Shown: in pieces, positions 14,662-53,963 of the stretch | Layout of the letters: each line of letters opens with the position of its first letter | Position numbering within the stretch: position 1 is the stretch's first letter | Source: Sphaerobacter thermophilus DSM 20745 | GTDB lineage: Bacteria; Chloroflexota; Chloroflexia; Thermomicrobiales; Thermomicrobiaceae | Reading direction: 5' to 3' | Length of the DNA stretch: 64,000 bases | NCBI RefSeq assembly: GCF_000024985.1 | Contig: NC_013523.1 | Coordinates: 496,001-560,000 of the forward strand | Notes under the pieces: generated by a model | Told to the model about the DNA's origin: nothing | The model's input: only the letters and a program-made list of their open reading frames with translations | Databases searched by the model: none | Position numbers and translations under genes: made by a program

Positions 14662-14676
14662 CGGATACTCCTCACC

Positions 14677-14790
14677 CCCTGCCCTCCTCTCCCACAAGGG
14701 GAGAGGGGATCCAGGGCGAGTGTTGCGTGTTGCGTATTGCGTACTGCGTACTGCGTATTTGTCCCCTCTCCCAGGATTGGGAGAGGGGAC
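14677..14790. repeat. Composite heptamer/palindrome repeat, copy 1
   Basis: Three parts in the gap between convergent M19 and thrS. First, a palindrome around CTCTCCC-ACAAG-GGGAGAG (about 14686-14707). Second, five uninterrupted 7-bp units of form YTGCGTR at 14723-14757. Third, a perfect 13-bp-stem hairpin at 14761-14790 (GTCCCCTCTCCCA, loop GGAT). The last hairpin may also terminate thrS transcription. Confidence 0.85.
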
Positions 14791-16598: not shown

Positions 16599-16616
16599 CA
16601 GGTGCTCCTTTGGGTT

Positions 16617-16798
16617 ATGCGTTATTCGTCAAACGTCAGGGGGACTGCGTCATTCGTGTTGCGTGTTCCGTGTTCCGTACCTCTCCTCTCTCCCCTGGTG
16701 GGAGAGGGGCTGGGGGTGAGGGGGACGTGTGACGCATGACGCATGACGCATCACGCATGACGTCCACCTCTCGACGCAGCACGGTTCACGCAACACGG
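16617..16798. repeat. Composite heptamer/palindrome repeat, copy 2 (in the thrS leader)
   Basis: Nine consecutive 7-bp windows from 16617 to 16679 keep register with NTGCGTN-like units (the window at 16638 is degenerate). A palindrome follows (CTCTCCC-CTGGT-GGGAGAG, continuing CTGGGGGTGAGG). Ten 7-bp windows in inverted orientation (NTGACGC/NNCACGC type, one degenerate) then fill 16729-16798. The element lies between the T-box terminator and the thrS start, so it is part of the read-through mRNA. Confidence 0.85.
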
Positions 16799-16854: not shown

Positions 16855-17105
16855 AAAAACGCCTGCCATCCGAAGGGACGGCAGGCGCGGCCTGACGTGG
16901 TTCCACCCTACTTCCGCCGCCCGGCACGGGCCGTGGCGGCGCTCAGGGTGCCCGATAACGGGGGCTACCGGATCCGGCTAATGACCCTGTGGGCGTTCGC
17001 CGGTCAGCTCACGGGTGGTTTTCTCCGGGCCGGTTACGGGTGGGGCTTGCAGCCGGTGGCCCCGCCTCTCTGGACGTCCGTTGCCCGGGTACTCGTCCCG
17101 CTCAA
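16855..17105 (-). promoter_or_regulatory. Threonine T-box riboswitch (leader of thrS)
   Basis: On the minus strand the leader shows the stem I elements GGGACGAGTA and CAGAGAGG and the distal GGCTGCAAGCC. A specifier GAAA-ACC-A follows, with ACC (a Thr codon) at 17017-17019. The T-box sequence AGGGTGGAACCACG is at 16896-16909. An intrinsic terminator closes the element: a GCCTGCC/GGCAGGC stem with TTCG-type loop and GTTTTT at about 16855-16886. Uncharged tRNA-Thr would stabilise the antiterminator and allow thrS transcription. No separate promoter is evident between it and tRNA-Val, so the two may share a transcript. Confidence 0.93.
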
Positions 17106-17181
17106 CGCCGTTGCGCTGTATTGCGGCCCATCCGGGCCGCGTCTGGAACGAAAGAACCGCCAGGAGGTCCTGACGGGTGTC

Positions 17182-17329: not shown

Positions 17330-17480
17330 GCCCTCACCCCCGACCCCTCTCCCAACTTTGGGAGAGGGGCGTCAGGCAAGGGGTTCGGCATTCCATGGTC
17401 GCTCCTGGGGCGAAGCCAAGGCGCCGATACTTCGGTGCTAACCTCGTCACGAAGCACGGAACACGCAACACGCACTACGT
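17330..17480. repeat. Composite repeat, copy 3 (palindrome plus heptamers)
   Basis: CCCTCACCCCC leads into a 12-bp-stem palindrome (CCCCTCTCCCAA / TTGGGAGAGGGG, 17344-17369). After about 75 other bases come five in-register inverted heptamers at 17446-17480 (NNCACGN type). The last heptamer ends three bases before the stop codon region of the RNase H-like gene. Confidence 0.8.
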
Positions 17481-41730: not shown

Positions 41731-41755
41731 CCCGCGTCGTGCGGAAGGAATGCTG

Positions 41756-42805
41756 ATGGCCGTACCACTTACCGTTACCCCGCCGGTCACTGACGAGCGG
41801 GCGATCCCGCGTTTCGGGGAGCGTCTGACCCGTGATGCCTACGGTCGGCCGATGACCTACCTGCGGATCTCCCTGACCGACCGCTGCAACCTGCGCTGCG
41901 TCTACTGTATGCCCGCCATCGGGGCCAAGTTCGCCCCGCGCGACGAGCTGCTGACGGACGAGGAGATCATCACCGTCGTCCGCGCTGCGGCGAAGATCGG
42001 CTTCTCCAAGATCCGGTTGACCGGCGGCGAGCCGACGGTCCGCCCGCATGTGGTCGACATCGTGCGCGAGATCGCGAACACGCCGGGTATCGACGATGTG
42101 TCGATGACCACGAACGGGCTGCTCCTGGCGCGGTTGGCAGAGGATCTCAAGGCCGCCGGGCTCCGGCGCGTCAACGTTAGCATCGATACCCTCAAGCCGG
42201 ACCGCTTCACCCGCATCACGCGCGGCGGGAAGATCGAGAAGGTGTGGGCGGGCATCGAAGCGGCAGAGGCGGCGGGGCTGACCCCGATCAAGTTGAACGC
42301 CGTCGTCGTGCGTGGGCAGAACGACGACGAGGTGGCCGACCTGGCCGCGCTCACGATCGACCGCCCCTGGCAGATGCGCTTCATCGAGGTGATGCCGCTC
42401 GAAGGCGTGGGGGACGTGCACGACTCGGGTCTGGTGACGACCGCCGAGACCATGGACCTGATCGAGCAGGTGCACGGCCCGCTGGAGGGACTGGAAGCGC
42501 CGCCCGGCGATCCGGCCCGCATCTACCGTATTCAGGGGGCGAAGGGCACCATCGGGTTCATCAGCCCGGTGAGCCAGCCGTTCTGCGCGTTCTGCAACCG
42601 CATCCGCCTGACGGCAGACGGCAAGTTGCGCCTCTGCCTGCTGCGGAACGACGAGGTGGACGTGCGGGACATCCTGCGCAGCGGCGGCACCGAGGAGGAC
42701 CTCATCGAGCAGATCCGCTTCGGCGTCTGGCGCAAGCCCTGGGGCCACGGCCTGGCCGAGGGCGACCGCAACACCGGCCGGGGGATGAGCCAGATCGGCG
42801 GGTAG
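41756..42805 (+). CDS. moaA: GTP 3',8-cyclase (molybdenum cofactor synthesis)
   Basis: 349-residue radical SAM enzyme making the first intermediate of molybdopterin from GTP. The N-terminal cluster motif is CNLRCVYC within RISLTDRCNLRCVYCMP. The SAM-binding Gly stretch is IRLTGGEPTVRPHVVDIV. The C-terminal cluster is CAFCNRIRLTADGKLRLCLL, and the tail ends GRGMSQIGG, containing the essential Gly-Gly. ATG 41756 has GGAAGGA at the right distance; 41750 is too close. The stop is followed 7 bases later by a repeat array. Confidence 0.97.
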   Translation: MAVPLTVTPPVTDERAIPRFGERLTRDAYGRPMTYLRISLTDRCNLRCVYCMPAIGAKFAPRDELLTDEEIITVVRAAAKIGFSKIRLTGGEPTVRPHVVDIVREIANTPGIDDVSMTTNGLLLARLAEDLKAAGLRRVNVSIDTLKPDRFTRITRGGKIEKVWAGIEAAEAAGLTPIKLNAVVVRGQNDDEVADLAALTIDRPWQMRFIEVMPLEGVGDVHDSGLVTTAETMDLIEQVHGPLEGLEAPPGDPARIYRIQGAKGTIGFISPVSQPFCAFCNRIRLTADGKLRLCLLRNDEVDVRDILRSGGTEEDLIEQIRFGVWRKPWGHGLAEGDRNTGRGMSQIGG

Positions 42806-42812
42806 CGGTGTG

Positions 42813-42928
42813 ATGCGTCATGCGTCACCCGTCATACGTCATGCCTGTGTCCTGCTCCGTACTGCGTCTTGCGTGAGGCGTGATGCGTGACGGATGACGC
42901 ATGACGCGTGACGGATGACGGAGGACGC
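42813..42928. repeat. Heptamer repeat array, copy 4
   Basis: Eleven in-register 7-bp units (NTGCGTN type) at 42813-42889, a 4-base centre ACGG, then five inverted units (NTGACGC type) at 42894-42928. The ATG of the M24 peptidase gene is the next three bases, and its GGAGG ribosome binding site lies inside the last units. No CTCTCCC palindrome in this copy. Confidence 0.85.
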
Positions 42929-44119
42929 ATGGGCGCGAATCTGGTGCGGGAGAAGCTGGCGCAGGCGACGGAGATCCTCGACGAGCTCGACATCGACCTC
43001 TGGCTCGTCGTGGCGCGGGAGAGTGACACGCTCGGTGACCCGAGCCTGCCGCTGGTGGTCGGTACCAGCGTCACCTGGGAGTCCGCCTTCTTAATCTCTC
43101 GCACCGGACGGCACCGCGCCATCGTCGGCACGGGCGATGTCGAGAACATCAAGCAGACCGGTGCCTGGGACGATGTGGTCGGCTATGTCGAGGGGATCAG
43201 CGATCCGCTGCGGCAGGCTATCGCCGAGTACGATCCCAACCGGATCGCCCTGAATTTCTCCAAGGACAACAACATCGCCGACGGGCTGACCTACGGGATG
43301 TACCTGGTGCTCCAGGACATTCTGGGCGATACCCCGTACTGGAGCCGGGTGGTGTCGGGGGAGCCGGTCGCCTCCCGCGTGCGCAGCCGCAAGTCGCCGG
43401 AGGAGCAGCGACGCATTCGGGCTGCCGTGGCGACCACGGTCGAGATCTGGGAGGAGCTGCGGCAGTGGTTGCGGCCGGGGCTGAGCGAGCGCGAGATCGC
43501 TGCCTTCATGCACGAGCGGGTGGCGGCGCGCGGGCTGACGACGGCGTGGGACCCGCGCTACTGCCCGACCGTCACCGCGGGCCCCGATTCCCCGGTCGGC
43601 CACGTGGGGCCAACGGACATCGCGGTCGAGCCGGGGCACCTGCTGTCGCTCGACTTCGGCGTCCGCCAGGAGGAGTACACCTCGGACCTGCAACGCACCT
43701 TCTACTTCCTGCGGCCGGGTGAGACGTCGGCGCCGCCCGAGGTCGAGCGAGCGTTCGGTATCATCTCGGGGGCTATCCAGGCTGCGGCGGAGGCGCTGAA
43801 GCCGGGCGTGCAGGGCTGGGAAGTGGACCAGGTCGCGCGGGACATCTTCGCCCGGGAGGGCGTGCCTCCGTGGGAGTTCGGCCTGGGGCACCAAGTGGGG
43901 CGTGCCGTCCATGACGGGGGCTGCCTGCTCGGGCCGCGGTGGGAGCGCTACGGCCAGCGGCCCTACGACCGGGTGGAGAAGGATCAGGTCTACACACTTG
44001 AGATCGGCATGACCGTGCCGGGTTATGGCCGCGTCAACCTGGAGGAGGACGTGGTCGTCACCGCAGATGGCTGCGAGTTCTTGACGCCGCCGCAGCGGGA
44101 GCCGATCTTGATCGGGTAG
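42929..44119 (+). CDS. Xaa-Pro aminopeptidase-like protein (peptidase family M24)
   Basis: 396 residues. The N-terminal creatinase-like domain is followed by the pita-bread catalytic domain. Its metal ligands are the two Asp in LSLDFGVRQEEYTSDLQRTF, His in GLGHQVGRAVHD, Glu in TLEIGMTVPG and Glu in NLEEDVVVT. It would release N-terminal residues next to proline or cleave related substrates. The start and its GGAGG lie in the preceding repeat array. It is followed by an M20 peptidase 25 bases downstream, so a peptide-utilisation pair is likely. Confidence 0.9.
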   Translation: MGANLVREKLAQATEILDELDIDLWLVVARESDTLGDPSLPLVVGTSVTWESAFLISRTGRHRAIVGTGDVENIKQTGAWDDVVGYVEGISDPLRQAIAEYDPNRIALNFSKDNNIADGLTYGMYLVLQDILGDTPYWSRVVSGEPVASRVRSRKSPEEQRRIRAAVATTVEIWEELRQWLRPGLSEREIAAFMHERVAARGLTTAWDPRYCPTVTAGPDSPVGHVGPTDIAVEPGHLLSLDFGVRQEEYTSDLQRTFYFLRPGETSAPPEVERAFGIISGAIQAAAEALKPGVQGWEVDQVARDIFAREGVPPWEFGLGHQVGRAVHDGGCLLGPRWERYGQRPYDRVEKDQVYTLEIGMTVPGYGRVNLEEDVVVTADGCEFLTPPQREPILIG

Positions 44120-52370: not shown

Positions 52371-53273
52371 ATGGCTCGACCGTACCCGGTGGGTGTCTTC
52401 GCACCCGTGGCCACGACGTTTACCTCTGATGGGTCTCTGGACCTGGAACGGTTCCGTGCCAACATGGAGTGGTACGCGACGTCGTCCCTCGACGGCATCG
52501 TGATCATGGGCTCCAACGGCGAGTACGTGAGCCTGTCGCCGGATGAGAAGCTGGCCCTGATCGAGGCGGGGGTCAAGGCGGTCGACGGACGTAAGCCGAT
52601 CGTCGCCGGGACCGGAGTCGAGTCCACCCGGGGCACAATCGAATTGACGAAGGCTGCGGCGGAGCTCGGCGCGAACTACGCGCTGGTCGTGACGCCGCAC
52701 TATTACAAGCCACGCTACGACAAGGCCGCCTACGTGCGGCACTTCCACGCGGTCGCTGATGCGTCGCCCATCCCGGTCATCGTCTACGTCATGGCGGCCT
52801 ATACCGGGGTCGACCTGCCGGTGGACACCGTGGTCGAGATCGCCCAGCATCCGAACATCGTGGGGATCAAGGACAGCGGCGGGAACGCGCCGAAGGTCGC
52901 CGAGATGGTGGCGCGTACCCCGGAGGACTTCGGCGTGCTGGCCGGGTCGGCCAACTTCCTCTACCCCGCGCTCTGCCTGGGGGCGACGGGCGGTATCCTG
53001 GCGCTGGCCAACGTGGCGCCCGACGCGTGTCAGGAGATCGTCCAGGCGTTCCGCGCCGGGGACCACGAACGGGCGCGGGCGACCCAGTTCCGCCTGCTGG
53101 CACCGAACGCGGCGGTGACCACGCGCTTCGGGATCGCGGGCCTGAAGGCGGCGATGGACATGATCGGCCTGCACGGGGGCGATCCACGGCCGCCGCTCCT
53201 GCCCCTGAACGACGCGGAGCGGGCGGAGGTCCGGCGTATCATGGAGGAAGCCGGCATCCTTGCCCGCGCCTGA
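52371..53273 (+). CDS. DapA-family aldolase/dehydratase
   Basis: 300 residues, TIM barrel. Schiff-base lysine K167 in VGIKDSGGN, tyrosine Y139 in VIVYVMAAYTG, and GSNGEY at 48-53 in place of the GTTGE of dihydrodipicolinate synthase. GSNGE and PHYYKPR are more like 4-hydroxy-2-oxoglutarate aldolase or sugar-acid lyases, so a carbon-catabolic role is favoured over lysine synthesis. It is 12 bases downstream of the YvlD-like gene, and its 3' end overlaps the next start. Confidence 0.85.
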   Translation: MARPYPVGVFAPVATTFTSDGSLDLERFRANMEWYATSSLDGIVIMGSNGEYVSLSPDEKLALIEAGVKAVDGRKPIVAGTGVESTRGTIELTKAAAELGANYALVVTPHYYKPRYDKAAYVRHFHAVADASPIPVIVYVMAAYTGVDLPVDTVVEIAQHPNIVGIKDSGGNAPKVAEMVARTPEDFGVLAGSANFLYPALCLGATGGILALANVAPDACQEIVQAFRAGDHERARATQFRLLAPNAAVTTRFGIAGLKAAMDMIGLHGGDPRPPLLPLNDAERAEVRRIMEEAGILARA

Positions 53274-53808
53274 GCAGCTTTCGGAGATCGAGACGTTCCC
53301 GGCACCGATCACGGTCGGGGTGGTGGCGGACACGCATCTCTCGGCGCGGGCCGCGGCCCGCGCCGGGCTCCCCGCACCGCTGTTGGCCGGGCTGCGCGGG
53401 GTCGATCTCATCCTCCACGCCGGGGATGTAACGAGCCCGGAGGCGCTGGCGCTCTTCGAGGCGCTCGCCCCGGTGCGGGCGGTGCAGGGGAACAACGAGG
53501 ACCCGGCACTCCGCATGCGGCTGCCGCGCATCCGCTACTTCCGCTTCGGCAACTTCACCGCCGGGCTGATGCACGGGCACGATGTCGAGCGGATGACCGC
53601 CCGCCAGGCGGCGGAGCACACGCTGGGCGGCCGGGTCGATGTCGCGATCTTCGGTCACAGCCACCGGCCGGTCTGCGAGTGGAGCGACGGCACGCTCTTC
53701 TTCAACCCCGGCTCTCCAACCCAGAAGCGCTGGGAACCGCGCTACTCCTACGGGATCATCCGCTTCACGGACACCATCCAGCCGGAGCTGCGGTTCTTCG
53801 ATCCGTGA
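53260..53808 (+). CDS. YfcE-type metallophosphoesterase
   Basis: 182 residues from TTG 53260 (GGAGGAAG 9 bases upstream), overlapping the aldolase gene by 14 bases. Calcineurin-like motifs are VVADTHL, LILHAGDVTS, VQGNNED, MHGHDVERM and IFGHSHRPV, with FFNPGSPTQKR at the end. The compact single-domain form is typical of YfcE-like phosphodiesterases acting on small molecules in the cytoplasm. Its stop codon lies within the first unit of a repeat array. Confidence 0.88.
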   Translation: MPAPEQLSEIETFPAPITVGVVADTHLSARAAARAGLPAPLLAGLRGVDLILHAGDVTSPEALALFEALAPVRAVQGNNEDPALRMRLPRIRYFRFGNFTAGLMHGHDVERMTARQAAEHTLGGRVDVAIFGHSHRPVCEWSDGTLFFNPGSPTQKRWEPRYSYGIIRFTDTIQPELRFFDP

Positions 53809-53963
53809 TGCGTGATGCGTGATGCGTCATGCGTCATACGTCATGCGTGTTGCGTGTTCCGTCTTGCGTAGGGCGTACTGCGTACTGAGTACTGCGTCAT
53901 GCTCCCCTCTCCCCTGGTGGGCTCCGTCGGAGAGGAGCCGGGGGTAAGGGGAACGCATGACGT
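53801..53963. repeat. Composite heptamer/palindrome repeat, copy 5
   Basis: Thirteen in-register heptamers (NTGCGTN type) fill 53808-53898, and a partly matching unit at 53801 overlaps the stop codon of the YfcE gene. A CCCCTCTCC...GGAGAGG imperfect palindrome follows (about 53904-53946), then inverted units ending at 53963. It is the longest uninterrupted heptamer run in the window. Confidence 0.87.

Follow-up and report, generated by a model that had tools for sequence, protein, structure and literature searches.

Intergenic heptamer arrays of Sphaerobacter thermophilus probably evolve mainly by slippage and retain a constrained CGT on a 7-bp pitch

The intergenic DNA of Sphaerobacter thermophilus DSM 20745 contains a dispersed set of tandem heptamer arrays, which we read, at a probability of about 60%, as an old, vertically inherited, slippage-evolving family of CGTNNTN units in which constraint acts on the CGT that recurs every 7 bp. 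Arrays would change in length when units slip during replication or recombine unequally, and such changes, made in whole units, would maintain the 7-bp register. The arrays would be tolerated in the 3' flanks of genes, with some overwriting the ends of their neighbours, and REP-like GC palindromes, a separate family, would have become joined with many of them. The simplest cause of the kept CGT would be a putative DNA-binding protein that contacts it in every unit. Degenerate heptamer arrays as such are already known; what is new is the split in substitution rate that sets CGT apart within the unit. It should be noted that slippage alone leaves the same order of unit types at many loci unexplained, which counts against this reading.

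The window, a stretch of 64,000 nucleotides (C1:496001-560000), is part of a two-contig genome (2,741,033 and 1,252,731 bp) that totals 3,993,764 bp. Genome-wide figures derive from 60 evenly spaced 20-kb stretches plus the window, together 1.264 Mb or ~30% of the genome. This sample yielded 56 heptamer elements, including two weak and doubtful ones (L068 and L078), and shuffled sequence yielded none at the same scores; scaling up from the 30% sample suggests ~150-180 elements genome-wide. Runs were far above chance, the sample containing 46 that reached a score attained by 0 runs in Markov-1 shuffles. The control built into the pattern search was uninformative because TGCGT is identical when read backwards. 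Lag 7 was the sole strong self-similarity among lags 3 to 12 in the window. Across the sample, all 34 stretches self-similar at lag 7 were intergenic and of the TGCGT type, and the other periods represented by more than two stretches were only multiples of 7 and two coding ones, so that 7 is the only intergenic tandem period. An Rfam search of the window gave no match at the heptamer arrays, and the units are contiguous with no spacers between them, in keeping with the earlier statement that this is not CRISPR.

A preliminary description, made from the letters of the window, had named five loci with runs of 7-bp units, and arms could be located at all of them (Table 1). The longest run, given there as up to 13 units, reaches 14 by the detector count. 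A GC palindrome, said to accompany most copies, is present at four of the five loci and absent from the 42812 element, but it belongs to a separate family with its own distribution. The stop codon TGA of the gene upstream of the 53801 locus (53260-53808) lies inside the heptamer arm, and the three species have different ends to this gene. The four-unit arm of the 17330 locus is missing in the 81%-identical relative (G002). A T-box leader (RF00230) was matched in the window at 16871-17114 on the minus strand, upstream of a gene reading as thrS, with 68.4 bits and an E-value of 1.2e-14, a score that does not reach the Rfam gathering score of 93. The heptamer element at 16609-16794 falls between this leader and the thrS start and would therefore lie in the transcribed leader.

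Table 1. Heptamer arms and GC palindromes at the five loci of the window (window positions).
Positions	Strand	Feature	Basis
14669..14708	.	GC palindrome CCTCACCCCCTGCCCTCCTCTCCC/GGGGAGAGGGG	
14722..14756	+	Heptamer arm, 5 units, in convergent gene gap	
14763..14788	.	GC palindrome CCCCTCTCCCAGGATTGGGAGAGGGG	
16609..16678	+	Heptamer arm, directly upstream of the thrS ribosome-binding site (minus strand)	
16686..16724	.	GC palindrome with GGGGGTGAGGGGG tail	
16732..16794	-	Inverted heptamer arm	
17331..17369	.	GC palindrome CCTCACCCCCGACCCCTCTCCC/GGGAGAGGGG	
17447..17476	-	Heptamer arm, 4 units	
42812..42888	+	Heptamer arm; fills the gap of tandem genes 41750-42805 and 42929-44119	
42890..42931	-	Inverted heptamer arm, extending into the ATG that starts the following gene	
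53800..53899	+	Heptamer arm, 14 units (detector count); spacer dinucleotides GA GA GA GA CA CAa CA GT GTc CT AG AC AC AC	sequence
53903..53938	.	GC palindrome with GGTGGGCTCCGTC loop; then CCGGGGGTAAGGGG	
53952..53963	-	Short inverted heptamer remnant (ACGCATGACG)	

The heptamer period is real, but the unit is better written CGTNNTN than as the NTGCGTN first proposed, its usual form being TGCGTNN. Among the 56 sampled elements, 32 are one-armed and 24 two-armed, and the latter are all convergent (24 '+-', 0 '-+') and often arranged around a GC palindrome, which agrees with the roughly symmetric layout noted from the window. In all three species the spacer blocks are ordered outside-in from CA/GA through GT to AT/AC, with CA passing to GT 18 times and GT to CA twice, and this shared order is most simply read as descent of the arrays from a common ancestor. 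Neighbouring units are most alike, with similarities of 0.43, 0.31, 0.21, 0.12, 0.11, 0.03 and 0.02 at lags 1-7; the absence of any rise at lag 3 speaks against the proposal that every third unit (21 bp) is read from one face of the helix.

As first described, the elements are dispersed and intergenic, with 54 of their 4432 bp falling within genes predicted by a home-made gene finder. Their gaps are tandem in 36 cases, convergent in 15 and divergent in 2, against 413, 100 and 150 of all gaps, and a check of orientation relative to genes thus reveals an avoidance of divergent gaps (2/53 elements vs 150/663 gaps, p 4e-4). The start of an arm often coincides with a stop codon, with distances of -7, 0 and 7 bp over-represented, because units with a GA spacer provide an in-register TGA; arrays may in this way have overwritten some ends of neighbouring genes. 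On chromosome 1 (sample stretches L031-L070), with the origin located by GC skew, arrays number 30 per 247 gaps in the origin half and 4 per 194 on the terminus side, a bias that was noticed after the fact. Lone GC palindromes have a weaker bias in the same direction (22/247 gaps in the origin half vs 7/194), and at least one array-free stretch on the terminus side is conserved at 91% in the closer relative, G001.

Within the family, it is only the three Sphaerobacter genomes that have these arrays in abundance. The 41 genomes searched gave 453, 320 and 647 pattern hits in these three and 0-1 in 18 others from the same family; a further 81 came from a single genome of more remote kinship, which carries a pure (TGCGTGC)n repeat. 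Arrays resembling these are also present in Anaerolineae, Chloroflexaceae, Gemmatimonadota and Desulfococcaceae, among others. On 118 contigs of many phyla (L229-L346), stray arrays lying away from the pattern hits had period 7 in 25 cases vs 0-4 for each remaining period in the range 4 to 12, and those of period 7 had many unrelated unit sequences; period 7 therefore recurs without CGT.

The comparison of orthologous loci, a check suggested at the outset, found array slots occupied in 22 of 23 cases in G001 (~91% identical) and in 10 of 12 in G002 (~81% identical), with 10 of 11 in the reverse direction. The G001 orthologue outscores the best non-orthologue in 9 of 11 arrays, which therefore points to vertical descent; array sequence in G002 is no nearer to the orthologue than to other arrays. 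Genus-specific homogenisation of the arrays was also considered, and the scores gave no clear sign of it. In the outgroup, the gaps at the 42813 slot hold ordinary sequence, and this array therefore either originated once the genus had diverged or disappeared from the outgroup.

The register of the arrays is explained mainly by slippage. Of the 33 indels that touch arrays, 18 have a length divisible by 7, vs 5 of 217 indels elsewhere in intergenic DNA, and since whole-unit indels are the signature of slippage or unequal exchange, the register can be accounted for without selection on the period. The strict spacing, originally taken as a sign of such selection, thus mostly needs no such cause. 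The reported lack of register indels holds inside a run because runs are defined that way, but comparison of the species shows entire units being gained and lost. Such changes are clear at one slot (L090 9299, compared with L369 of G001), where G001 has 8 additional units in one arm and S. thermophilus 2 additional units in the other, with the GC core barely altered. Small off-register indels per substitution number 5 per 191 in arrays vs 177 per 3253 elsewhere, making them about half as frequent, and selection on spacing was set aside as an explanation, the off-register indels in arrays being too few to claim it.

Slippage without constraint leaves unexplained the difference in rate between CGT and NNTG. 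Across 162 register-aligned units, S. thermophilus differs from G001 at rates of.198 (N),.191 (N),.173 (T),.265 (G),.068 (C),.037 (G) and.062 (T) for the successive positions of NNTGCGT, and the comparison rates are.201 at 4-fold sites,.126 in other intergenic DNA and.129 for CGT outside arrays; in summary, CGT changes at ~5% per site, NNTG at 17-27% and neutral sites at 20%. This split persists when the comparison is limited to the 37 units of gapless runs or to 133 ungapped units anchored by their flanks. In arrays found by phased TGC alone, the unused G6 and T7 stand at.90 and the used G4 is the lowest of the TGCGT positions, at.73. Because the arrays had been chosen from a single species for matching TGCGT, apparent divergence at all five positions can be as much as halved, and exchange between unlike units may raise the NNTG rate; selection bias and unit exchange together could mimic part of the CGT signal. 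The detector, however, weighted T and G equally with C, G and T, which counts against a selection artefact. The excess conservation of CGT is modest relative to CGT outside arrays once selection is allowed for (~.065-.09 expected) and strong relative to T and G of the same units. From these alignments, CGT is likely, though not proven, to be under constraint, and to the extent that it is kept the arrays are therefore not wholly free of constraint.

The same data bear on the possibility, tentative in our view, that the arrays are neutral or selfish heptamer microsatellites which slippage both makes and keeps, with the retention of CGT resulting from a detection artefact combined with exchange between unlike units. 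That the stray arrays on the 118 contigs are nearly all of period 7 with quite different units would fit such an origin, as would the Xanthomonas arrays, which act alike (PMC4692102), but it accounts poorly for the drift of.17-.27 at T and G of TGCGT despite their equal detector weight and for the same slots being filled across 81% identity.

The closest known counterparts are heptamer repeats of other bacteria. Xanthomonas (GGGANTN)n and Nostoc GGGGA(C/T)T arrays consist of degenerate intergenic 7-bp units, single or as inverted pairs; those of Xanthomonas, which agree with the Sphaerobacter arrays on almost all points, are few between divergent genes, retain the same gene context in relatives in 83% of cases and vary in length; no function was found for them, and slippage tied to the polymerase footprint was proposed (PMC4692102). 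The Sphaerobacter arrays likewise have tandem 7-bp units in which some positions are conserved and others vary, an intergenic bias with avoidance of divergent gaps, a shared gene context, and a unit number that varies in 7-bp steps. They differ in that CGTNNTN lacks a G run and a quadruplex motif, a feature that defines the GGGANTN subtype and not all heptamer arrays, and in their frequent fusion to a GC palindrome; the ordered blocks and the CGT rate split were measured here. Degenerate heptanucleotides with changing copy number are also shared with the cyanobacterial STRR in the P6b hairpin of the Nostoc tRNA-Leu intron, which pair into a hairpin (PMC3488679) and differ in unit sequence and in their intron location. 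The TAACTGA direct repeats of marine Beggiatoaceae are intergenic at >100 loci, patchy in distant phyla, and subject to indels in 7-nt steps between Cyanothece strains (PMC4679880); in contrast to the Sphaerobacter arrays, they have a near-invariant unit, each set holds few copies, and most lie shortly before a start codon, in one orientation.

Somewhat doubtful is the view that the arrays are tandem protein sites under selection, in which one dimer per heptad would sit on CGT and the arrays would organise or regulate the origin-proximal chromosome. The conservation of CGT on a 7-bp pitch and the enrichment in the origin half of chromosome 1 are consistent with this view, as is the resemblance to parS of pSM19035, where contiguous 7-bp direct and inverted repeats each take one dimer of the RHH ParB (omega) and >=4 are needed for full activity (PMC9499535). 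Sphaerobacter units are contiguous and direct or inverted in the same way, but the plasmid-borne parS has WATCACW units and six sites, and no such protein was found in Sphaerobacter. A search of the three genomes for an RHH protein that might read CGT returned one RHH_1 gene in each; being VapB-antitoxin-like and with no array near, it is an unlikely reader. The origin bias was seen post hoc and is partly shared by lone GC palindromes, and the number of units varies freely. The regulator- or nucleoid-binding array envisaged in the preliminary description thus gains from the retention of CGT beside a neutral rate at NNTG, which supports read-out, but no protein that binds the arrays was found. 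It is unlikely, although conceivable, that the ~150-180 arrays are the binding sites of a protein that coats tandem heptads and would mark the origin-proximal half, as a chromosomal counterpart of plasmid heptad centromeres.

It is improbable that the arms act as RNA, pairing into a hairpin at transcript ends that would serve as a terminator or mRNA stabiliser. Folds are strong (z -5.4, -3.8 and -4.7), the elements are located after genes in tandem or convergent gaps, and in S. thermophilus arms match better within elements than between them (0.66 vs 0.58, p 0.002). In G001 (p 0.22) and G002 (p 0.11), however, this matching falls short of significance, and pairing between arms was dropped as a selected feature; in addition, it is CGT that is constrained rather than the stem in its entirety, many elements are one-armed, and the elements printed have no T run.

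The GC palindrome is REP-like and forms a family separate from the heptamers, with 70 copies in the 1.264-Mb sample, of which 28 are near an array. Palindromes with the GGTGGGCTCCGTC loop occur mostly with arrays and those with a short loop mostly without, and the family is sporadic in other Chloroflexota. As in REP/BIME palindromes, which are short, intergenic, placed in tandem or convergent gaps and sometimes paired (PMC3733652), the likeness concerns the palindrome part only, and the heptamer arms match no REP family described there. Lone palindromes have no CGTC end tag, their flanking tetranucleotides being mainly ACGG or GCGG, and no GTAG end was seen in the copies examined; the CGT+C adjacent to arrays derives from the heptamer. 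No RAYT gene was linked to the palindromes. At the L067 3359 slot, a segment with two inverted GC palindromes is present in G001 (L373) and absent in S. thermophilus. A search restricted to the Y1_Tnp transposase family found a Y1 transposase-like gene at L347 (G000:C1:86896-87234), between apparent gyrA and gyrB parts and with its own flanking inverted repeats, which have CCCGGGG palindromes and are unrelated to the heptamers; a Y1 transposase or RAYT is accordingly an unlikely mover.

Very improbable, finally, is a MITE, foldback or REP-like mobile element with the inverted heptamer arms as terminal repeats moved by a transposase: the always convergent two-armed layout, the unit-block order common to different loci, the REP-like GC core and the palindrome segment present in G001 alone at L067 are in its favour, but there are no recent near-identical true copies (the top pair, L068/L078, is a doubtful weak run in otherwise repeated sequence), slots are common to the species and not polymorphic, no clean empty site, target duplication or precise-end insertion polymorphism was found, and the only Y1 gene has neither heptamers nor GC cores near it. 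A mobile element had been suggested at first; recent mobility of the heptamers is not supported.

For the old, slippage-evolving family preferred here, the three Sphaerobacter genomes allow a direct test, and its outcome is a clear split in which most of the unit drifts freely and CGT does not. If the split is confirmed in strains, the question raised by the arrays would become one of a binding site, for which the bait sequence is already defined. The bacterial excess of exactly seven-base tandem repeats is an old puzzle for which, to our knowledge, there is no accepted cause or function, and the recurrence of period 7 with unrelated units in other phyla points to a general route by which such arrays are made.
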